A DNA stretch of 64,000 nucleotides from Burkholderia multivorans ATCC BAA-247. GTDB taxonomy: Bacteria > Pseudomonadota > Gammaproteobacteria > Burkholderiales > Burkholderiaceae. Below are positions 1-44,877 of this stretch, piece after piece. The first letter of the stretch is position 1. Each line of letters starts with the position of its first letter. The translations under genes were made by a program, and so were the position numbers. The stretch covers positions 992,001-1,056,000 of the forward strand of contig NZ_CP009831.1 of assembly GCF_000959525.1 (NCBI RefSeq), in the 5' to 3' direction. The notes beneath the pieces were generated by a model. That model did not search any database, was not told the origin of the DNA, and saw only the letters and a list, made by a program, of their open reading frames with translations.

Positions 1-309
1 GCCCTGTTCGGCGGTCAGCGTCTGCGCGATGGGTTCGAGATGGCGGCGCACGAGATCCTGAAACTTCAGCATGATCCGCACGCGCGTGCCGATCGGCGTC
101 GTCTTCCAGGTGTGGAACGCGCGCTGCGCGGCGGCGATGGCCGCATCGATCTCGTCGAGCGTCGCGTACGGCACGCGGCCGATCGCCTGCTGCGTGGCGG
201 GGTTCACGATGTCGCCCCATTCGGTGCTGCGCGAATCGACGAACGAGCCGTCGATCAGCAGCTTGGCGGTGGGCAACGCGAGGGCGGTCTGGGGAACTGC
301 GGCGTTCAT
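1..309 (-). CDS. mmsA: Methylmalonate-semialdehyde dehydrogenase (CoA-acylating), N-terminal part
   Basis: This is the first 103 codons of an aldehyde dehydrogenase; the gene runs off the left edge. The visible protein opens MNAAVPQTALALPTAKLLID, followed by a GSFVDSR...WGDIVNPATQ stretch and an AIGRVPYATLDEIDAAIAAA segment, which is the usual N-terminus of MmsA. MmsA converts methylmalonate or malonate semialdehyde plus CoA and NAD to propionyl- or acetyl-CoA in valine and beta-alanine catabolism. The catalytic cysteine lies outside the window, so activity cannot be judged. It sits 109 bp downstream of an MHS transporter on the same strand and may be co-transcribed with it. The start is the ATG behind a GGAGAC-like ribosome site. 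Confidence 0.85.
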   Translation of the reverse strand, partial: MNAAVPQTALALPTAKLLIDGSFVDSRSTEWGDIVNPATQQAIGRVPYATLDEIDAAIAAAQRAFHTWKTTPIGTRVRIMLKFQDLVRRHLEPIAQTLTAEQG

Positions 310-418
310 GGAAGTCTCCGGAAGAACGGGGTGATGAAGAAACAGGGCGGCCGCGTCCGCCGCGCGCAGCGTGGCGCGCGGACGCGGAACGTGGAGGGAA
401 GCCGGCGCGGCCGGCGTG

Positions 419-1738
419 TCAGTGGCGTGCGGGACGCATCAGCGCCGTGCACACGAGCGCGAACACGCCGAAGCCGACGAGATACGCGATGACGTAGTGC
501 GGCTGACCGCCGCCGGCCTTGAGCAGCGAGGTCGCGATCATCGGCGCGAAGCCGCCGCCGATCACGCCCGCGAGCTGGACCGACAGCGAGATGCCGCTGT
601 AGCGGATTTCGGCGGGGAACTGCTGCGCGAACAGCAGCGATTCGGGTGCGTACAGAATCGGAAACACGACGCCGAGGCCCAGCACGATCGCCCACCACGC
701 GAGCGCGGTCTGCTGCGTGCCGAGCATCATGAAGAACGGTGCGGCGAACACGCACATCAGCACGAGCCCGATCGCGAACATCCGGCGCTGGCCGATCAGG
801 TCGCTCAGATGGCCGCACAGCGGCATCGTGACGAGCGACAGCAGCGCGCCGGCCGTGATCGCGTGCAGCATCTCGGCCTTCGGTAGATGGAGCTGCTGCG
901 TCGCATACGACAGCGCGAACGTGACGACCATGTAGAACCACGTGTTCTCGGCCGCACGCGCGCCGACGATCGTCAGCACTTCACGCGGATGGCGGCGCAG
1001 CGCGGCCGTCACCGGCGACTTCTCGGCCTTGCCCTGGCGCTGCATCTTCTCGAAGTCCGGCGATTCCGGCACCTTCGCGCGGATGAACCAGCCGAGGCCG
1101 ACCAGCGCGATGCTCGCAAGGAACGGCACGCGCCAGCCCCACGACAGCATGTCGGCTTCCGGCAGCGCGGCGACCGCGGCCATCGCGAGCGACGAGAGGA
1201 TCAGGCCGAGCCCGACGCCCGTCTGCGGCAGGCTGCCGAACAGCCCCTTGCGGCCCTTCGGCGCATGCTCGACGGCCATCAGCACCGCGCCGCCCCATTC
1301 GCCGCCGACCGCCATCCCCTGCAGGAAGCGCATCGCGATCAGCAGCGCGGCGGCCCAGTAGCCGATGCGGTCGTACGACGGGATCAGCCCGATGATCATG
1401 CTCGGCACGCCCATCAGCAGCAGCGTGATCATCAGCATCGACTTGCGGCCGATGCGGTCGCCGAAGTGGCCGAACACGATGCCGCCCATCGGCCGCCCGA
1501 TGAAGCCGACCGCGAACGTGCCGAACGCGGCGAGCGTACCGACGACCGGGTCGAGCGACGGAAAGAAGATGCGGTTGAATACGAGCGCGGCGGCGGTGCC
1601 GTACAGGAAGAAGTCGTACCACTCGATCGTCGTGCCGGCCATGCTGGCCCAGCCGGCCAGCAGATGATGCCGCGCGGTGCGCGCGGGGGCCGGCAGCGCG
1701 GCGGTTGCATGCTCGTCGAGCGTGGATCGCGTCTGCAT
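419..1738 (-). CDS. MFS transporter, metabolite:H+ symporter (MHS) family
   Basis: A 439-residue inner-membrane transporter of the MHS branch of the major facilitator superfamily, related to ShiA and KgtP. Seen in the protein: the TIEWYDFFLYG motif of MHS proteins near residues 37-47, the loop 2-3 signature GHFGDRIGRKS near 90-100, GGEWGGAVLMAVE near residue 145, and about twelve hydrophobic segments. Its substrate cannot be read from sequence; the family takes organic acids and compatible solutes. Because it lies just upstream of mmsA on the same strand and faces a LysR regulator across a 160-bp gap, uptake of a carboxylate feeding mmsA is a reasonable inference. The length is typical of the family and no frame damage is seen. 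Confidence 0.88.
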   Translation of the reverse strand: MQTRSTLDEHATAALPAPARTARHHLLAGWASMAGTTIEWYDFFLYGTAAALVFNRIFFPSLDPVVGTLAAFGTFAVGFIGRPMGGIVFGHFGDRIGRKSMLMITLLLMGVPSMIIGLIPSYDRIGYWAAALLIAMRFLQGMAVGGEWGGAVLMAVEHAPKGRKGLFGSLPQTGVGLGLILSSLAMAAVAALPEADMLSWGWRVPFLASIALVGLGWFIRAKVPESPDFEKMQRQGKAEKSPVTAALRRHPREVLTIVGARAAENTWFYMVVTFALSYATQQLHLPKAEMLHAITAGALLSLVTMPLCGHLSDLIGQRRMFAIGLVLMCVFAAPFFMMLGTQQTALAWWAIVLGLGVVFPILYAPESLLFAQQFPAEIRYSGISLSVQLAGVIGGGFAPMIATSLLKAGGGQPHYVIAYLVGFGVFALVCTALMRPARH

Positions 1739-8308: not shown

Positions 8309-9343
8309 TCAGCGCGCGGGCGGCGGCGGGTCGACCTCGACGCGGTTGCGGCCGTCGCGCTTCGCGCGATAGAGCGCGCGGTCGGCGGCCTCGATCAGCG
8401 CCGTCGTCGGCAGGCCGGGCGCGGGCACGATGCTCGCGCCGCCGATGCTGACCGTCACGTGGCCGGCCGTCGACTGCCCGTGCTCGAGCCGCAGCGCGTC
8501 GACCGCGAGCCGGATCTTCTCGCCGAGCAGTCGCGCGGCACCCGCCGACGTGCCGGGCATCACGACCGCGAATTCCTCGCCGCCGAAACGCGCGGCGAGA
8601 TCGCCGGACGGCCGCAGGCACTGCGCGATGGTCGTCGCGACCTGCCGCAGTACGTGGTCGCCCGAGACGTGGCCGTACGTGTCGTTGTACAGCTTGAAGT
8701 GGTCGACGTCGATCATCAGCAGCGACAGCTCCGCGCGCTCGCGCGTGCCGCGCCGCCACTCGGCGGCCAGGTATTCGTCGAGATAGCGGCGGTTCGACAG
8801 CTCGGTCAGACCGTCCGAATGCATGAGACGCCGCAGTTCGAGATTGGCTTCGAGGAGCTGCTGCTGCGATTGCCGCAGTGCGCGGTAGGCATCGTCGCGC
8901 TGCAGCAGGTTCATGTACGAGCGCGAGTGGTAGCGGATGCGCGCGACGAGTTCGATGCGGTCGGGCAGCTTCACGAGATAGTCGTTCGCGCCGGCCGCGA
9001 ACGCGGCGCGCTTGATCGTCGGCTCTTCCTGCGTCGACAGCACGATGATCGGCACGTCGCGCGTCGCGGGATTCGCACGATACGCGTGCACGAGCGTCAG
9101 CCCGTCGGTGCCGGGCATCACGAGGTCTTGCAGGATCACGGTCGGGCGCGTGTCGATGGCCGCGGCCATCGCGTCGTCGGAGCGCGCGCAGTAGTGGAAG
9201 TCGATGCCGGCCTCGTCGATGAGCGCGCGTCGCACGGCTTCCGCGACGATCGTCTGATCGTCGACCAGCAGCACCATCGCCGGTGCATCGGCGGGCGGGT
9301 ACGGCGCGTGAACGGGCGGCAGGCGCGTCGGGTCGCTAGTCAT
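8309..9343 (-). CDS. wspR: WspR-like response regulator diguanylate cyclase
   Basis: 344 residues: a receiver domain (about 22-140; phospho-acceptor D73 in LQDLVMPG), a short coiled-coil linker (about 150-175) and a GGDEF-type cyclase with GGEEF at 254-258. The linker and the segment [11 protein letters not shown]...[10 protein letters not shown] are close to WspR of Pseudomonas, which makes c-di-GMP when phosphorylated. The usual inhibitory RxxD site just before GGEEF reads RPSGD here, one residue longer than normal, so product inhibition may be altered. It is downstream of a CheB gene with a 54-bp gap, the WspF-WspR order, but no wspA-E genes follow in this window. Confidence 0.85.
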
Positions 9344-9397
9344 GGTCGATGCGTGGGTCTGTCATGGCGGGAAGGGCGTCGGTGGGGCGCGGCAGGT

Positions 9398-10402
9398 TCA
9401 GATGCGCACGAGCGTCGCGAGTTCGCCCGCGATGCGCTCGAGCGGCAGGATCGCGCGCGCGGCGCCGAGCGTCGCGGCCGCCTTCGGCATCCCGTAGACG
9501 GCGCTGGTCGCTTCGTCCTGGGCGATCGTATGGTAGCCCTTCATCCGCAGCGCCTTGAGCCCGATCGCGCCGTCGCGGCCCATGCCCGTCAGCAGCACGC
9601 CGATCACGTTGCCGGACCAGTGTTCGGTCAGGCTGTTGAAGAACACGTCGACCGACGGCCGGTACGGCGTCGCGGCCGGTTCGCGCGTGTACGCGAGCGT
9701 GCCGGCGCGCGTCATCCGCAGATGATCGTCGGTCGCGGCGAGCAGCGCGACGCCCGGCTGCGGGCGATCGCCTTCGCGCGCGACGCGCACGGTGAGCGGC
9801 GTCTGACCGTCGAGCCACTGCGCCATGCCTTCGGCGAACGCGCGATCGACGTGCTGGACGATCACGATCGGCGCATCGAAGTCCGCGGGCAGGCTGCCGA
9901 GAATCGACGCGAGCGCGCCCGGGCCGCCGGCCGACGCGCCGATCGCGACGAGCGGGCCGCCGTGCGCGCGATGCGTCGCGCAGCCGGCGCGCACGCCGCC
10001 CGGCGCATCGAGCAGACGGCCGATCTGGTCGATCTTCGCGAGCAGCAGATCGGCGGTGTCGCCGGCCGCGCCTTCGCGCAGCTGCGGCGTATCGACGGCG
10101 TCGAGCGCGCCGGCGCCCATCGCCTCGTACACGCGCCAGGTGTTCGCGCCGATGCTGCTCGTGACGATCAGGATCGCGCACGGCCGCGCGGAACGCATGA
10201 TGCGCCGCGTCGCCTCGATCCCGTCGAACTTCGGCATGATCAGATCCATCAGCACGATGTCGGGCGGCTGCGCGGCGCAGAGCTCGACGGCCTGCGCGCC
10301 GTCGGTCGCGACCCACAGCACGCGGTGCTCGGGGCGCCGCGCGAGCACGCGGCGCAGTGCCTCGACCGCGAGCGGCAGGTCGTTGACGATGCCGATGTTC
10401 AC
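9398..10402 (-). CDS. CheB-type chemotaxis methylesterase (WspF-like)
   Basis: 334 residues: an N-terminal receiver (phospho-acceptor about D53 in VLMDLIMPKFDG) and a C-terminal CheB methylesterase domain with the serine in AIGASAGGPGAL, histidine in VQHVDR and aspartate in TGMGRDG. The family removes methyl groups from chemoreceptor glutamates or deamidates glutamines. Its position immediately upstream of a WspR-like cyclase suggests the Wsp surface-sensing branch (WspF). No receptor, CheR, CheA or CheW gene is adjacent: upstream lies a 459-bp gap and then a small hypothetical gene. It starts with GTG behind GGAGAG. Confidence 0.87.
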   Translation of the reverse strand: MNIGIVNDLPLAVEALRRVLARRPEHRVLWVATDGAQAVELCAAQPPDIVLMDLIMPKFDGIEATRRIMRSARPCAILIVTSSIGANTWRVYEAMGAGALDAVDTPQLREGAAGDTADLLLAKIDQIGRLLDAPGGVRAGCATHRAHGGPLVAIGASAGGPGALASILGSLPADFDAPIVIVQHVDRAFAEGMAQWLDGQTPLTVRVAREGDRPQPGVALLAATDDHLRMTRAGTLAYTREPAATPYRPSVDVFFNSLTEHWSGNVIGVLLTGMGRDGAIGLKALRMKGYHTIAQDEATSAVYGMPKAAATLGAARAILPLERIAGELATLVRI

Positions 10403-10861
10403 AAGCGGGACTCTCCGGTCGGGTCGTTATCGTGAAGTTGGGCCGGTTTCATCGATGGGGGCCTGTTCGCATGCGCCGCGCCGGCTTCGATGGCCGGGCG
10501 GCGCGGATTGTTTTCGGTTCGCATCGCCCCGCATGCTGTCATGCGGCGCGATTCGCGGCAATCGAAAAATGGGTGAGCGATGCGTTTGTCAGTGCGTTCG
10601 CGCACCGAACGCGCATGTCGGCGGCCGTGCGGCAGCGGAGCCCGGGGGCGCCGCAAGCGGCGGGATGCCGTGTTCGCAGGGCGTGCGACGGGCCGCGCCG
10701 CGCCGCCTGCGGCGTCGGAGCGGGCCATGTCGAAGCCATGTCGAAGCCGCGCCGGGCGAAGCGGGCAGTGAGCGACCGGCGGCGGGCGGCGGTCGAGCGA
10801 CGGGCATGCCCGATGAATGCGCATTGCCGCCGCATCGAACACCGACGGCGGCGGCCGCGGT
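10403..10861. other. Non-coding gap upstream of the cheB/wspR-like pair
   Basis: 459 bp without a credible gene; open frames here have no ribosome sites and arginine-rich, low-complexity translations. It must contain the leftward promoter for the cheB-wspR pair. A short tandem CATGTCGAAGC duplication lies near 10727-10748. No terminator or RNA gene could be recognised. Confidence 0.4.
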
Positions 10862-39713: not shown

Positions 39714-42131
39714 ATGACCATTCGTCATCGCATTACGTTGCTGGTTGTTCTGACGTTCGTCGCGTTGTCCGCGATCGGCGTCTATGCCGTGTACCAGACG
39801 CGCAAGAGCGCATCCGAGGTTCGCCAGGTCACGCAGGGCATCGTGCCGAGCGCACTCGCGTCGGCCGATCTCGTCGCCGACGTGAAGAACATCCAGATCG
39901 CGACGATGACGCTCGTGTACGCGCCCGACCCCAACACCGTCGCGCAGGCGGCCGACGAGCTGAAGACGAAGGAGGCCGCATTGCGCGCGGCGCTCGACGC
40001 GCAGGCGCGCTCGGCGGTGGGCCGCGCGCAGCAGGGCCTCGTCGCGCAGGCGAAGGACAGCGCCGCGAACTATTTCGCGGCGATCGACGACACCGTGAAG
40101 ATGAAGACGGCCGGCAAGGCCGAAGTCGCGCAGGCGTACCTGTTCGCGAACGTCGCGCAGTACCGAGACGAACTCGAAAGCATCGTCGACACGCTGCGCG
40201 TCGAGAAGAACCGGCAGAAGGACGACGCGATCCTTGCGCTGAACGGCATGCTGTCGACGACGGCGACCGCGATCGGCGGCGTCGCCGGCACGGTCGTCGT
40301 GCTGCTGACCGCGCTCGGCTTCGTGCTGTATCGGCAGATCACGCGTCCGCTGAGCCGGATGCAGACGATGATGAGCGAGATCGCGACGAGCCAGGACTTC
40401 ACGCGGCGCGTGCCGGTCGGCCGGATGGACGAGATTGGCCACTCGATCGTCGCGTTCAACGGGATGATCGAGAAGATCCAGGAGAACGCCGCGCAACTGA
40501 AGCAGAAGACGGCCGACATCCAGGCGATGCTGCAGAACATGCAGCAGGGGATTCTGACGGTGGTCGACGGCGGCGTCGTGCATGCCGAATATTCGGCGTA
40601 CCTCGAGACGATCTTCGAGACGCGCGACATTGCGGGGCGCGACCTGATGGCGCTCGTGTTCGACGATTCCGACCTCGGTTCGGACGCGCGCTCGCAGGTC
40701 GAGGCGGCCGTGCACGCGTGCCTCGGCGAGGACAGCATGAACTTCGCATTCAACGAGCATCTGCTCGTAAACGAAGTCGCGAAACGGATGCCGGACGGCC
40801 GTCACAAGTGGCTCGATCTGAGCTGGTCGGCGATCACCGACGAGAGCGATACCGTCGTGCGGCTGATGCTATGCGTGCGCGACGTGACCGAGATTCGCGA
40901 GCTGACCGCGCAGGCCGGCGAGCAGCAGCGCCGCCTCGAGATGATCGGCGAGATTCTCGCGATCAGCCAGGAAAAGTTCCACGACTTCGTGCACAGCGCG
41001 AAGGGCTTTCTCAGCGAGAACGAGCGGATGATCCGGCAGCACGAGCGCGCGGATCACTCGGTCGTCGCCGCGCTGTTCCGCAACATGCATACGATCAAGG
41101 GCAACGCGCGCACGTACAGCCTGCAGCATCTGACCAACATCGTGCACGAAGCCGAGCAGGCGTACGAATCGCTGCGCCGCGCGGACAGCGGCCCCGAATG
41201 GAACCGCGACGCGCTGATGGAAGATCTTGCGCGCGTGCGCGAAGCCATCGATCACTACGCGACGATCAACGCCGTCACGCTCGGCCGCAGCGGCGGCCCG
41301 GCCGACGGCGCGCCGGCCGATTATCTGATGGTCGAGCGTGCGCATATCAGCGAAAGCCTGCGGATGCTCGATCGCGCCGACCCGGCAAACGCGGCCGACT
41401 GGCGCGCGGCGCGCGATGCGGTGCGCCGGATGCTGAGTCAGCTCGGCACGCAGGGGATCGGCGACGCGCTCGGCGGCGTGATCGAATCGCTGCCGTCGCT
41501 CGCGACCGAACTCGGCAAGCCGGCGCCCGTCGTGCACATCGACAGCCGCGGCTGGCGCGTGCGCAGCGAGATCGCGCCGACGCTGAAGAACGTCTTCATG
41601 CACCTGATGCGCAATGCGATCGATCACGGGATCGAGACGTCCGACGAGCGCCGTGCGGCCGGCAAGCCGGCGGCGGGCACGATCGACGTCGCGGTCGACG
41701 TCGATGCAGAGGCGCTGCGCTTCGTGCTGCGCGACGACGGCCGTGGGCTCGCGCTCGAGCGCATTCGCGCGATCGCGCACGAACGCGGCTGGCTCGATGC
41801 GGATGCGCCCGCGCTGTCGGACGAGGCGGTCGCCGAACTGATCTTCCGGCCGGGCTTCTCCACCGCGCGCGCGGTGACCGAGGTATCGGGGCGTGGCGTC
41901 GGAATGGACGCGGTGCGTAACTTCCTGAAGCGCGATGGCGGCGACATCGTGCTGCGCTTTACCGACGCGTGCGTCGGCGCGCCGTATCGTGCGTTCGAGA
42001 CGATCGTGTCGCTGCCCGCACGCTTCGCGGCGGACGGCCACGCGCACGGCGACGGACACGCGGCCGACGCCGCACGGCAGCCGGCCGACGCCGGCATCGG
42101 CGCACGCTTCAGTACCGCGGAGCGATCGTGA
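39714..42131 (+). CDS. Membrane sensor fused to CheA-like histidine kinase (MCP-like N-terminus, Hpt, HATPase)
   Basis: 805 residues. Order: transmembrane helix 1 (about 7-27), a helical extracytoplasmic domain like the four-helix bundle of chemoreceptors (30-185), helix 2 (about 185-208), HAMP (about 210-262), coiled coil, a PAS-like segment (about 275-390), an Hpt domain with HTIKGNART and phospho-acceptor H459, and a CheA-type ATPase with NAIDHGIE (N634), DDGRGLALERIR and SGRGVGMDAV. A CheA would normally end with a CheW-like regulatory domain; here a His/Ala-rich tail follows and no such domain is seen. The kinase is thus directly attached to its sensor. First gene of a five-gene run, overlapping the next by 4 bp. 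Confidence 0.82.
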   Translation: MTIRHRITLLVVLTFVALSAIGVYAVYQTRKSASEVRQVTQGIVPSALASADLVADVKNIQIATMTLVYAPDPNTVAQAADELKTKEAALRAALDAQARSAVGRAQQGLVAQAKDSAANYFAAIDDTVKMKTAGKAEVAQAYLFANVAQYRDELESIVDTLRVEKNRQKDDAILALNGMLSTTATAIGGVAGTVVVLLTALGFVLYRQITRPLSRMQTMMSEIATSQDFTRRVPVGRMDEIGHSIVAFNGMIEKIQENAAQLKQKTADIQAMLQNMQQGILTVVDGGVVHAEYSAYLETIFETRDIAGRDLMALVFDDSDLGSDARSQVEAAVHACLGEDSMNFAFNEHLLVNEVAKRMPDGRHKWLDLSWSAITDESDTVVRLMLCVRDVTEIRELTAQAGEQQRRLEMIGEILAISQEKFHDFVHSAKGFLSENERMIRQHERADHSVVAALFRNMHTIKGNARTYSLQHLTNIVHEAEQAYESLRRADSGPEWNRDALMEDLARVREAIDHYATINAVTLGRSGGPADGAPADYLMVERAHISESLRMLDRADPANAADWRAARDAVRRMLSQLGTQGIGDALGGVIESLPSLATELGKPAPVVHIDSRGWRVRSEIAPTLKNVFMHLMRNAIDHGIETSDERRAAGKPAAGTIDVAVDVDAEALRFVLRDDGRGLALERIRAIAHERGWLDADAPALSDEAVAELIFRPGFSTARAVTEVSGRGVGMDAVRNFLKRDGGDIVLRFTDACVGAPYRAFETIVSLPARFAADGHAHGDGHAADAARQPADAGIGARFSTAERS

Positions 42132-42868
42132 GCGTGTGGACGATCGCGATCGCTGTGGCGCTCGCATCCGGTTTCGTCGTCGTGCTGGCCGCAATCGGCG
42201 TGCTCCGCGTGCGCGACGCACGGCGCGTTGCCGCGCTGACCGGCGAAACCGGTGCATTGCGCGCCGCGCTCGCCGCGGCCGACGCGCGCGCCGACGAAGC
42301 GACCGCAGCGCATGCGGACGCGGCGGCCGCATGGGCGGAGCGCGAAGCGCAGCTCGAGGACGCGCTCGCGCGCGCGCGTGCCGAATGCGACGCGCAGCGT
42401 GACGCCTGCCGTACGCTCGCCGCCGAACGCGACACGCTCGCGCAGCACGCGACGAAGATCGCCGACGAAGCGGCGCGCCTGCGCGGGCTCGCGGGCACGT
42501 TCGAGCGCTGGCACGAGCAGATGATCTCGCTGACCGCGCAGAACCAGGACATGCGCATGAAGAACCAGGAGCTGTCGGCGATCGTCGCGCACGTGTCGAT
42601 CGTGTCGCTCAATGCGTCGATCGAAGCCGCGCGTGCGGGCGCCGCGGGCCGCGGCTTCTCGATCGTCGCGAGCGAGGTGCGCGGGCTCGCCGCGCGCTCG
42701 CAGCAATTGTCGAACAGCTATCGCGACAGCCTGAACCGCAACGATCTCGTGACGGCCGCGACGTTCCAGGACATTCAGGCCGGCGGCAAGATGATCACGG
42801 CCGCGCTCGCGACGGTCGAGACGCTGGCCGGCCAGCTGCGCGCCCGACTCGACGGAGCGGCCGCGTGA
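42128..42868 (+). CDS. Anchored coiled-coil protein with chemoreceptor signalling-tip sequence
   Basis: 246 residues. One N-terminal membrane helix (about 4-24), a long Ala/Arg/Glu-rich coiled coil (about 35-130), then a chemoreceptor-like tip region: VSIVSLNASIEAARAGAAGRG (shortened: NASIEAARAGAAGRG) and SIVASEVRGLAARS. There is no ligand-binding domain and no HAMP, and the region after the tip is short (about 60 residues). Starts GTG, overlapping the kinase stop. It could form a signalling scaffold with the fused kinase. Methylation-site pairs cannot be pointed out confidently. Confidence 0.78.
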   Translation: MSVWTIAIAVALASGFVVVLAAIGVLRVRDARRVAALTGETGALRAALAAADARADEATAAHADAAAAWAEREAQLEDALARARAECDAQRDACRTLAAERDTLAQHATKIADEAARLRGLAGTFERWHEQMISLTAQNQDMRMKNQELSAIVAHVSIVSLNASIEAARAGAAGRGFSIVASEVRGLAARSQQLSNSYRDSLNRNDLVTAATFQDIQAGGKMITAALATVETLAGQLRARLDGAAA

Positions 42869-43467
42869 TCAGCGCACAGGCGAAGGCCGGTTTCGAGCGG
42901 ATCTTCTTCGACGCCGCGCGCACGCGGCTCGCCGCCGACAGCGCGTGCGACATCCGCCCCGTCGCGCACGATGCAGGCGATGCTTCGAGCGCGTCTACGC
43001 CCCCGTCCGCGTCGCGCCCGACGCCACGCCCGAACGCGCGCGCGGCCGAGCACCTTGCCGTGCTGACGATTTCCGCGCTGCATTTCCGGCTGCTGCTCGC
43101 GCTGAATTTTCGCGACGACGAAGCGACACGCCGCCATTTCGCGTCCGCGATGCAGACGGGCGGTGCACAGCGGCCGTTGCCGGAAGCGTTCATGGAGATT
43201 GCGAATCTGTGTTGCGGGGCGATCAACCAGGCGCTGACGGCGGCGTTCCCCGATCTCGGGATGTCGACGCCGTATCTGCTGCACGGCGCGAGCGTCGACT
43301 ATCTGGCCGCGCTTCGCCCGGACCACATGGCCGCCTACGACGTGACGCTCGACGGCGACGTGCGGATCGGCGCGACGCTCTGCGTCTGCGCGAACGCGCC
43401 GGTCGACTTCCACGTGCCGGAAACGGCCGCCGCGGTAGACGCCGGCGGCGCGCTCGAACTGTTCTGA
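42865..43467 (+). CDS. CheC/CheX-like phosphatase family protein, short
   Basis: 200 residues, GTG start overlapping the previous stop. After a Pro/Ser-rich stretch (about 45-60) the protein contains FMEIANLCCGAINQ, i.e. the E-x2-N active-site signature of CheC/CheX/FliY phosphatases, followed 21 residues later by a proline. The C-terminus reads GGALELF, almost the same as GELELF at the end of the next protein. Only one ExxN motif is present, as in CheX. Probable role: dephosphorylation of the operon's CheY. Overall similarity to named CheX proteins is weak by eye. Confidence 0.6.
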   Translation: MISAQAKAGFERIFFDAARTRLAADSACDIRPVAHDAGDASSASTPPSASRPTPRPNARAAEHLAVLTISALHFRLLLALNFRDDEATRRHFASAMQTGGAQRPLPEAFMEIANLCCGAINQALTAAFPDLGMSTPYLLHGASVDYLAALRPDHMAAYDVTLDGDVRIGATLCVCANAPVDFHVPETAAAVDAGGALELF

Positions 43468-43524
43468 CCGGCCCCGACGAACCCCGCGCGCGTGCCGCGC
43501 GATCGAACCCGAGGATTTCGCGAG

Positions 43525-44481
43525 ATGACCGAAGACCAACCCGTCAGCAAGGTGCTGGTGCTCGAAGACAGCCGCGCGCATGCAGACGCGATCAAGCGCT
43601 TTTGCGACGAACATCATCTGGTCGGGCTGACCGTGCGACGCAACCGGCTGCTGCAGGTGCTGCGCTCGAACATCGACCTCGGCGCGATCCTGCTCGCCGA
43701 AGACTACGGCGGTTCGCCGGCCGAGAGCGCGATCGTCGCGACGCAGATCGACGCGCTGCGCCCGGAGTTGCCGATCATCCTGCGCCGCACGTCGCTCGCG
43801 TCGCGCGAGGGGCTGCCGGAGGCGCTCGCCCGCGTCGCCTGCGCCGCGTACGTCGCGGACGACATGACGCCGCTGCGCCGCGCGATCGACGAATACCTGT
43901 TCAGCCGCGACTACCCGAACGCGCTCGTGCGCGGCATCTCGGAGATCACCGAGGCGCGGCTCGACACGCTGTTTCCGGGCATGACGATCGAGCGCGACAC
44001 GCCGTGCATCGTGCGCGACCAGATCATCTTCGGCGAGGTGTTCAGCCTGATCGCGCTGGAAAGCGCGTGGTGCCGCGGCTACATGCTGCTGCAGACGAGC
44101 GAGCAGCCGCTGCTCGACATGATCGGCAGCGTGCATCGCGACCGGGCGCCGGACTTTCGCGACGTCAACGGCGTGCTCGGCGAACTGACGAACCTCGTCT
44201 GGGGCGCGTTCAAGAACCGCTACCTCGGCGACGCCGACGCGCTCGCGCGTCATCCGGTGCAGGTGCCGCTCGTCGTCAATCACAAGCAGAAGTTCATCTC
44301 GTTCGGCGGCGACTGTCCGCAGCTCTGTTTCAAGTACCGGATGACGGACCCGTCGAGCGGCCGCGCGGTGCAGATCGATCAGCGCTTCGTGTTCAGTCTC
44401 AGCTGGTCGCCGGAGGATTTCCGCGAGCAGGTGCCGGACGTCGGGCCGATGGTCGAGTCGGGCGAACTCGAACTGTTTTGA
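43525..44481 (+). CDS. Receiver-like domain fused to CheX-like domain
   Basis: 318 residues. The first 120 residues look like a receiver (KVLVLEDSRAHADAIKRFCDE; ILLAEDYGG), with the usual phospho-acceptor position occupied by AED, so phosphorylation is uncertain. The C-terminal half has a CheX-like region with E-x2-N in GVLGELTNLVWGAFKNRY and VVNHKQKFISFGG, and ends GELELF. ATG at 43525 is preferred over a GTG at 43492 because GAGG lies 12 nt before it. Likely phosphatase or phosphate-flow modulator for the CheY encoded next. Confidence 0.65.
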   Translation: MTEDQPVSKVLVLEDSRAHADAIKRFCDEHHLVGLTVRRNRLLQVLRSNIDLGAILLAEDYGGSPAESAIVATQIDALRPELPIILRRTSLASREGLPEALARVACAAYVADDMTPLRRAIDEYLFSRDYPNALVRGISEITEARLDTLFPGMTIERDTPCIVRDQIIFGEVFSLIALESAWCRGYMLLQTSEQPLLDMIGSVHRDRAPDFRDVNGVLGELTNLVWGAFKNRYLGDADALARHPVQVPLVVNHKQKFISFGGDCPQLCFKYRMTDPSSGRAVQIDQRFVFSLSWSPEDFREQVPDVGPMVESGELELF

Positions 44482-44511
44482 AGTCAGCAACACACGAAAG
44501 GGGAATACCGC

Positions 44512-44877
44512 ATGGCAAAGATTCTGGTGGTCGACGATTCGGGCACGGTGCGCGACGAGGTCGCGGGCTTTCTGCGCAATCACGGGCTCGACGTCGCGAC
44601 GGCGGTCGACGGCAAGGACGGGCTCGCGAAGCTGCGCACGACGCCGGGCGTGCGGCTCGTGATCAGCGACGTCAACATGCCGAACATGGACGGGCTGACG
44701 ATGGTCGAGAAGATCCGCGGCGAGCTCGCGAATACGTCGGTCAACGTCGTGATGCTGACGACCGAAAGCAGCCCGGCGATGAAGGAGCGCGGCAAGGCCG
44801 CGGGCGTGAAGGGCTGGATCGTGAAGCCGTTCAAGGGCGATGCGGTGCTCGATGCGCTAAAGAAGCTCGCGAGCTGA
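44512..44877 (+). CDS. CheY-like single-domain response regulator
   Basis: 121 residues, receiver only. DD at 8-9 (VVDDSG), phospho-acceptor in VISDVNMPNMDG (about D55), threonine in MLTTES and lysine in VKPFKGD are all present. The NMPNMDG and KPFKGD segments are typical of CheY. Strong ribosome site (AAAGGGG). It is the last gene of the chemosensory-like operon and presumably receives phosphate from the fused CheA-like kinase; the output is unknown. Confidence 0.88.
   Translation: MAKILVVDDSGTVRDEVAGFLRNHGLDVATAVDGKDGLAKLRTTPGVRLVISDVNMPNMDGLTMVEKIRGELANTSVNVVMLTTESSPAMKERGKAAGVKGWIVKPFKGDAVLDALKKLAS

Follow-up and report, generated by a model that had tools for sequence, protein, structure and literature searches.

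Can a chemosensory kinase that carries its own membrane sensor work without CheW? This question is raised by five same-strand genes of Burkholderia multivorans ATCC BAA-247, located at positions 39714-44877 of the window, i.e. the whole stretch of 64,000 nucleotides that was analysed. The coordinates (Table 1) bear out the five co-directional genes with short or overlapping junctions that had been predicted originally. A scan for promoter and terminator consensus sequences gave a result near chance level.

Table 1. Genes of the unit and codons of the common tail (nucleotides of the window), followed by the domains of KIN (residues)
Feature	Position	Strand	Remarks
KIN, membrane sensor kinase, 805 aa	39714..42131	+	ATG start
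TIP, receptor-tip protein	42128..42868	+	GTG start; overlaps KIN by 4 nt
CHX1, CheX-like phosphatase (predicted)	42865..43467	+	GTG start; overlaps TIP by 4 nt
RECX2, receiver-CheX fusion	43525..44481	+	ATG start; 57-nt gap after CHX1
CHY, single-domain CheY, 121 aa	44512..44877	+	ATG start; 30-nt gap after RECX2
C-terminal tail codons of CHX1, including stop	43447..43467	+	tail common to CHX1 and RECX2
C-terminal tail codons of RECX2, including stop	44461..44481	+	tail common to CHX1 and RECX2
KIN, 4HB sensor	1-161		
KIN, HAMP	205-257		
KIN, PAS-like domain	268-391		
KIN, Hpt/P1	441-510		H459
KIN, short P3-like hairpin	~542-575		
KIN, P4 ATPase	623-~774		
KIN, disordered tail			no P5

The five genes are a real, conserved unit in Burkholderia and distant relatives. 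Comparison of synteny, proposed as a check of the prediction, recovered the order KIN-TIP-CHX1-RECX2-CHY in 83 of the 87 related loci compared, even where kinase identity falls to about 40%, and this conservation rules out a chance assembly of genes. Paraburkholderia xenovorans LB400 has an orthologous unit (locus L101). In contrast, the neighbouring frames are of unrelated kinds (10 scanned of 18 picked). Nevertheless, the parts are not always found as a set, because RECX2 is absent from Ideonella, where the CHY frame is also short (90 aa), stands alone in the stretch fetched from Caballeronia sordidicola, and has a second, solitary copy in genome G293. In another genome, G299, TIP-CHX1-RECX2-CHY occur without an adjoining kinase, and two KIN-type kinases are encoded elsewhere. 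The idea of a five-gene machine is weakened by this separation of output genes and kinases. Distances between KIN and TIP across loci are unreliable, since start codons were chosen by rule. No relative of KIN was found in viral contigs.

KIN, with the layout 4HB-TM-HAMP-PAS-Hpt-ATPase, matches the Pfam families 4HB_MCP_1, HAMP, Hpt and HATPase_c, and CheA is its best solved-structure match by sequence. The phosphorylatable H459 of the Hpt domain is kept in all 85 KINs (window and 84 loci), and N634, D674 and G728 in 84/85 each. In a profile of 19 KINs, residues 538-752 align with P3 and P4 of CheA, which suggests that some of the dimerisation region may be retained. The alignment with P3 starts at residue 538 and the structure model shows a short hairpin, but H-kinase_dim was neither matched by Pfam in KIN nor among the 25 of 30 Pfam families listed for 18 KIN proteins. 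CheW is likewise missing from those 25 families and has no match in KIN itself at E≤1 (Pfam, 10 families matched). A P5 CheW domain was found in none of the Pfam, profile or kinase-clade scans, and the model ends after P4. The possibility that P5 was overlooked is rejected by the agreement of profile, Pfam and structure model, and the same three sources support the receptor-fused, CheA-type kinase without a CheW-like domain that had been proposed. A phylogeny of the kinases, suggested beforehand and based here on P4, gathers the relatives of KIN in one clade (support 0.983), apart from the CheA proteins of the same genomes. All nine KIN-clade kinases compared, window included, end 5-55 residues past P4 and none has a CheW match, whereas 18 of the 21 CheA pieces taken from these genomes match this domain (tree and end comparison were built from 30 of 37 matches). 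KIN thus has the P1 Hpt and P4 domains in common with CheA, with a profile match that extends over part of P3, but differs in lacking P5 and in having its own membrane sensor, HAMP and PAS.

The sensor part of KIN is variable, and the Hpt-ATPase core is kept. Full KIN frames of three loci (L033, L117 and L119) have no 4HB match, and that of L035 lacks HAMP and carries an additional PAS_3, but Hpt and HATPase_c are present in all four. This combination fits input in cis. Domain counts from rule-chosen starts (4HB 14/18, HAMP 16/18) were not used for this claim; such starts cut the sensor from some aligned rows, including those of the same four loci. The PAS-like domain of the B. multivorans kinase, between HAMP and Hpt, lies just under the Pfam cut-off and had not been noted before.

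Two genes of the unit encode CheX proteins. RECX2 matches CheX above the Pfam cut-off and also the solved structures 3iic, 3h2d and 6vpw. CHX1 is a weaker member of the family, because its match is under the cut-off (E 0.0016); its matches to 6vpw (E 0.035) and 3h2d (E 0.29) are weak as well. The E-x2-N motif of CheC/CheX phosphatases, ascribed to both proteins from the outset, corresponds to E111-x2-N114 in CHX1 and E219-x2-N222 in RECX2 (numbering without the first Met), and it is kept in 87/87 sequences of each (window and 86 loci). Unlike in known CheX/CheC systems, there are two divergent copies per operon, one of them fused to an apparently degenerate receiver, with a common C-terminal tail. 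The two families align weakly in hhalign (probability 25.8, E 7e-4), and the alignment includes the tail. CHX1 ends in GALELF and RECX2 in GELELF. The pattern G-x-L-[ED]-x-F terminates 87/87 CHX1 and 87/87 RECX2 sequences, versus 0/87 TIP, 0/85 KIN and 0/87 CHY. At the codon level, the 6.3-Mb genome contains G-x-L-[ED]-[LF]-F-stop twice, and both matches belong to this operon. This tail was not part of the original prediction.

The N-terminus of RECX2, about residues 6-127, adopts a receiver fold in the structure model. Pfam does not show this receiver at E≤1, the comparison with PDB profiles gives a weak match to 3n53 (E 0.41), and hhalign aligns it with CHY over the first 26 residues only, including the acidic pair. 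At P0004 position 57, which terminates strand 3 according to a visual reading of the register in the model, Ala is found in 65/87 sequences and Asp in 4/87; the next residue is Glu in 79/87. The region where Lys is expected reads A-D-D in the window, again with the register taken by eye from the model. This apparently degenerate receiver had also escaped earlier notice.

CHY matches Response_reg in Pfam, with receiver residues D8/D9, D53, T83 and K105; D8, D9 and K105 are kept in 87/87 sequences and D53 in 86/87, in line with the assignment of the fifth gene as CheY. It consists of a single receiver domain without an effector domain. In seven distant loci, no other protein of the unit is as well conserved as CHY, which is 64-84% identical to its orthologues there; its closest counterpart among the other CheY proteins of the same genome is 43% identical. 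TIP starts with a hydrophobic stretch (read by eye), which is likely a membrane anchor, and continues with a long helix-forming stretch and a chemoreceptor hairpin tip. The latter, recognised originally, is confirmed by a Pfam MCPsignal match at residues 155-238 of P0002 (E 1.1e-14). TIP shares this hairpin with chemoreceptors but has no sensor or HAMP domain detected by Pfam at E≤1.

Taken together, the unit is probably a self-contained, CheA-derived phosphosignalling pathway with a sensor in cis, its own CHY and two tail-docked phosphatases. Judging from the domain composition, the kinase would be under cis control, exerted through HAMP by a four-helix sensor in the periplasm and a PAS-like domain in the cytoplasm, which would take the place of receptors plus CheW in standard systems. 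Within the KIN dimer, P4 would phosphorylate the Hpt domain at H459, from which the phosphate would pass to D53 of CHY. CHX1 and RECX2, with their intact E-x2-N sites, are predicted to take it off again. CheZ docks on CheY through a peptide at its C-terminus, and the common tail may by analogy hold both phosphatases to CHY or to a common scaffold. The degenerate receiver of RECX2 could have a fixed role in binding or regulation, and TIP may recruit CHX1, RECX2 and CHY, either to receptor arrays or to KIN.

The output of the pathway is likely the flagellar motor. FliM is found in 7/7 and 21/22 carriers in two tests, versus 190/369 genomes of the class, the carrier without a match being one metagenome bin. 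This background is that of the class as a whole, so the link may only reflect the relatedness of the carriers. A target other than the motor, such as pili, c-di-GMP enzymes or something else, runs counter to this presence of FliM and seems somewhat unlikely. It would agree with the neighbour frames, where the ten scanned (seven loci; 18 picked, nine loci) contain no motility gene except an MCP in L035, and with the P4 tree, in which the KINs have as their sister group five large kinases whose open frames measure 1868-2332 aa (support 0.874, unrooted), a length typical of ChpA-type pilus kinases.

Original claims on the surroundings of the kinase were upheld at the locus. There is no CheW match in the window and the 87 related loci (E≤1), in a scan whose controls, stretches L123 and L124, were positive in five frames, and no CheR match in the window or the 87 loci (E≤1e-3 for the loci); in three of these loci, less than 1 kb of sequence is present on one side of the unit. 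CheB matches in the loci (E 1.6e-8 to 8.4e-4) are significant where they cover the receiver portion of each query, and the sole row over a catalytic motif has an i-E of 2e+03. A CheB-like gene lies 30 kb from the unit, within the window. CheW is, however, encoded elsewhere in 6/6 carrier genomes checked and in the B. multivorans genome itself, which has further CheA, CheW and CheY proteins. TIP, for its part, keeps the receptor hairpin core LNAxIEAARAGxxGRGF. The CheW-free character of the system therefore holds for the locus but is weakened for the cell, where cross-talk or CheW acting in trans is possible. These observations, together with FliM in the carriers, would suit a side branch of the chemosensory array that serves the flagella, with TIP in mixed arrays via the main CheW and CheA, and KIN and CHY feeding or draining the same motor signal. 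We consider such an arrangement unlikely: TIP lacks the FQTN stretch that precedes the hairpin in the own receptor of L123 and has conserved, family-specific flanks, CheW and CheR are missing from the loci, and CHY is much closer to its distant orthologues than to any other CheY of its genome. That CHY and the two CheX proteins are mainly a phosphate sink, with a drop in phosphate on another CheY as output, would accord with two phosphatases per one CheY without effector domain, but is improbable given the kept catalytic residues and the superior conservation of CHY, which suggest a specific partner.

Within the self-contained pathway, a more specific version can be put forward tentatively. 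A CheW-free branch of CheA would have a sensor ruling a P5-less CheA in cis, a dedicated CheY, and a reset by two tail-docked CheX phosphatases instead of receptor methylation, one of them governed by a non-phosphorylatable receiver. Several interchangeable sensor kinases might feed one TIP-phosphatase-CheY unit, as hinted by the two free kinases of G299.

A lineage with P1 and P4, without P5 and with its own sensor would show a chemosensory kinase working outside the receptor array or, alternatively, how such a kinase became a simple sensor kinase. In a survey of 13,673 CheA proteins, the CheW domain, treated as invariant CheA core, was detected in 100%, and the dimerisation domain never occurs without it (PMC10782961, excerpted text). 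The minor receptor-CheA fusion class mentioned in the original prediction could not be traced in that excerpted text, where 'transmembrane' and 'sensor domain' have no occurrences and 'HAMP' appears only in a reference title. Surveys that define CheA by the CheW domain would probably miss such systems. No description of the unit or of the tail was found among the listed titles and abstracts of open-licence papers. A V. cholerae motility-regulator paper (PMC8789113) was set aside, its excerpts being related by terms but not in content, and excerpts of PMC2673030 yielded no passage on the CheZ C-terminus.

The common tail of two divergent phosphatases provides a compact prediction of a docking motif. 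The genome of B. multivorans encodes a protein after flagellar cheY that we take to be CheZ-like from its position and a motif, not from a profile. The likeness of this protein to CHX1 and RECX2 concerns the C-terminal ends, fold aside: it too ends in an acidic-hydrophobic peptide with a terminal Phe.

Five co-directional genes, with junctions of -4, -4, +57 and +30 nt, make up the operon and encode, in order, a sensor kinase (KIN), a receptor-tip protein (TIP), a CheX-like protein (CHX1), a receiver-CheX protein (RECX2) and CheY (CHY). No description of this five-gene unit was found among the titles and abstracts listed in searches of open-licence papers. In Pfam searches, KIN (805 aa) consists of 4HB_MCP_1, HAMP, PAS-like (slightly under the cut-off), Hpt (H459) and HATPase_c domains; TIP has a chemoreceptor hairpin with no detectable sensor or HAMP domain. 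Both CHX1 and RECX2 carry the E-x2-N phosphatase motif, and CHY is a complete single-domain CheY. KIN is 99% identical to a kinase on a Burkholderia multivorans plasmid record.

The original observation that the kinase has no CheW-like domain (P5) is borne out. Pfam yields no CheW match in KIN at E<=1, and the domain is absent among the 25 families shown, of 30, for 18 KIN proteins. Solved CheA structures align with a profile built from 19 KIN relatives, both in P1 (Hpt; approximately aa 422-518) and in P3 and P4 (dimerisation and ATPase; aa 538-752), with E 3e-57 for the whole match; the best-scoring stretches shown reach aa 771 at most, before any P5. Consistently, the final strand of the predicted KIN structure spans residues 772-774 and is followed by a tail with pLDDT <50. 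A P4 tree was built from 30 of 37 matches (seven had no locus), which represent 8 genomes and comprise 9 KINs and 21 CheA proteins. In it, KINs separate from CheA proteins as a single clade (support 0.983); all nine lack CheW and end 5-55 residues past P4. The closest to this clade, in the unrooted tree, are five large kinases (support 0.874). Among the CheA pieces, 18 of 21 match CheW; L159, L173 and L174, which do not, sit in fetched stretches of limited length, and for two of them the Pfam CheW model found the domain in the same frames (G633 C1, G293 C470). In a CheA survey (PMC10782961), all 13,673 CheA proteins (100%) were found to contain a CheW domain, and no dimerisation domain occurred without kinase and CheW domains; since that set was taken from a database classification, this universality may partly be a matter of definition. 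By that standard KIN falls outside CheA, but it may nevertheless work like one.

The genus sample comprises 37 genomes, own genome counted, and 33 of them contain KIN at E<=1e-30, in three cases in two pieces or as a partial match; one additional match (G040) is limited to aa 586-747. In G008 and G014, KIN is split into two overlapping pieces, a frameshift or assembly error. At E<=1e-8, own genome included, RECX2 occurs in 4/369 genomes of the class sample and 5/398 of the phylum sample. Across 84,980 species genomes scanned, 319 stretches with RECX2 relatives were found, of which the best 80 were retained; these are mostly from Burkholderia, Paraburkholderia, Caballeronia, Trinickia and Pandoraea, and include four named Propionivibrio, Sterolibacterium (two) and Rhodocyclaceae. 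With 7 further loci, 87 were compared, and the five-gene order is intact in 83. The exceptions are L076 (contig edge), L034 (no adjacent KIN), L114 (RECX2 alone) and L031 (RECX2 missing, CHY short). Every locus except L031 was chosen by, or around, a RECX2 match, so the conservation test rests on the other four genes. Distant full copies (L033, L035, L041; start codons set by rule) share 39-46% identity in KIN, 39-56% in TIP, 25-41% in CHX1, 43-51% in RECX2 and 64-80% in CHY. Ten neighbour frames scanned from seven loci (of 18 picked in nine) belong to unrelated families, one being an MCP adjoining the unit in L035. Solitary RECX2 copies keep the C-terminal tail G-x-L-[ED]-x-F common to CHX1 and RECX2, as GELEFF in L036 (also L030) and GELDLF in L114.

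Coordinates of the operon and of related features
Feature	Location	Strand	Remark
Five-gene operon	window 39714-44877		
CheB-like protein (receiver + CheB_methylest)	window 8312-10426	minus	adjoins receiver-GGDEF protein; ~30 kb from operon
Free-standing KIN-clade kinase, G299	L180 7467-10745		
Free-standing KIN-clade kinase, G299	L181 7723-11013		
MCP + STAS-domain gene	L035 3473-4981		immediately downstream of unit; distant genome
Unit without RECX2	L031 8001-13333		Ideonella dechloratans plasmid; CHY frame short; integrase next; near diversity-generating retroelement genes
RECX2 relative	L036 5900-6883		other four genes not nearby
RECX2 relative	L114 8860-9954		other four genes not nearby

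No cheW or cheR match was found beside the unit in relatives. To look for CheW, an HMM was made from the five such domains that the own genome encodes; it matched five frames of two control stretches and, at E<=1, nothing in the window or in any of the 87 loci. CheR was likewise not found in any of these loci at E<=1e-3. In 84/87 loci the unit is flanked on both sides by 1 kb of sequence or more. CheB queries did give matches in these loci, with E-values from 1.6e-8 to 8.4e-4; what is significant in them falls within the receiver part of the query, and the single match covering a catalytic motif had an i-E of 2e+03. No CheR or CheW match accompanies the CheB-like gene in the window. Outside the cluster, the own genome does encode CheW, as do 6/6 carriers of the unit tested, so a cluster without CheW does not mean a cell without it.

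Judging from sequence, the signal would pass from the sensor through KIN to CHY, with two phosphatases. KIN is probably controlled in cis by its own sensor, since a variable sensor is set on a constant core and P5 is lacking. In genome G299, two KIN-clade kinases (4HB, HAMP, GAF, Hpt, HATPase) lie on other contigs than the output genes, with no TIP, CheX-like or unit-type CHY genes beside them in 16-kb stretches, and the TIP-CHX1-RECX2-CHY set has no adjacent kinase; this suggests that the kinases provide the input to an output module formed by the last four genes. The tail may dock the CHX1 and RECX2 phosphatases, because it is invariant. The own genome's CheZ-like protein ends in VDDLLASLGF, and the tail's resemblance to this end is presumably one of analogy. 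FliM, taken as a motor marker, is present in 7/7 carriers and in 21/22 further genomes picked out of the 80 loci (the 22 include one with RECX2 alone), versus 190/369 genomes of the class, which suggests the flagellar motor as output, the carriers being interrelated and the comparison class-wide rather than family-wide.
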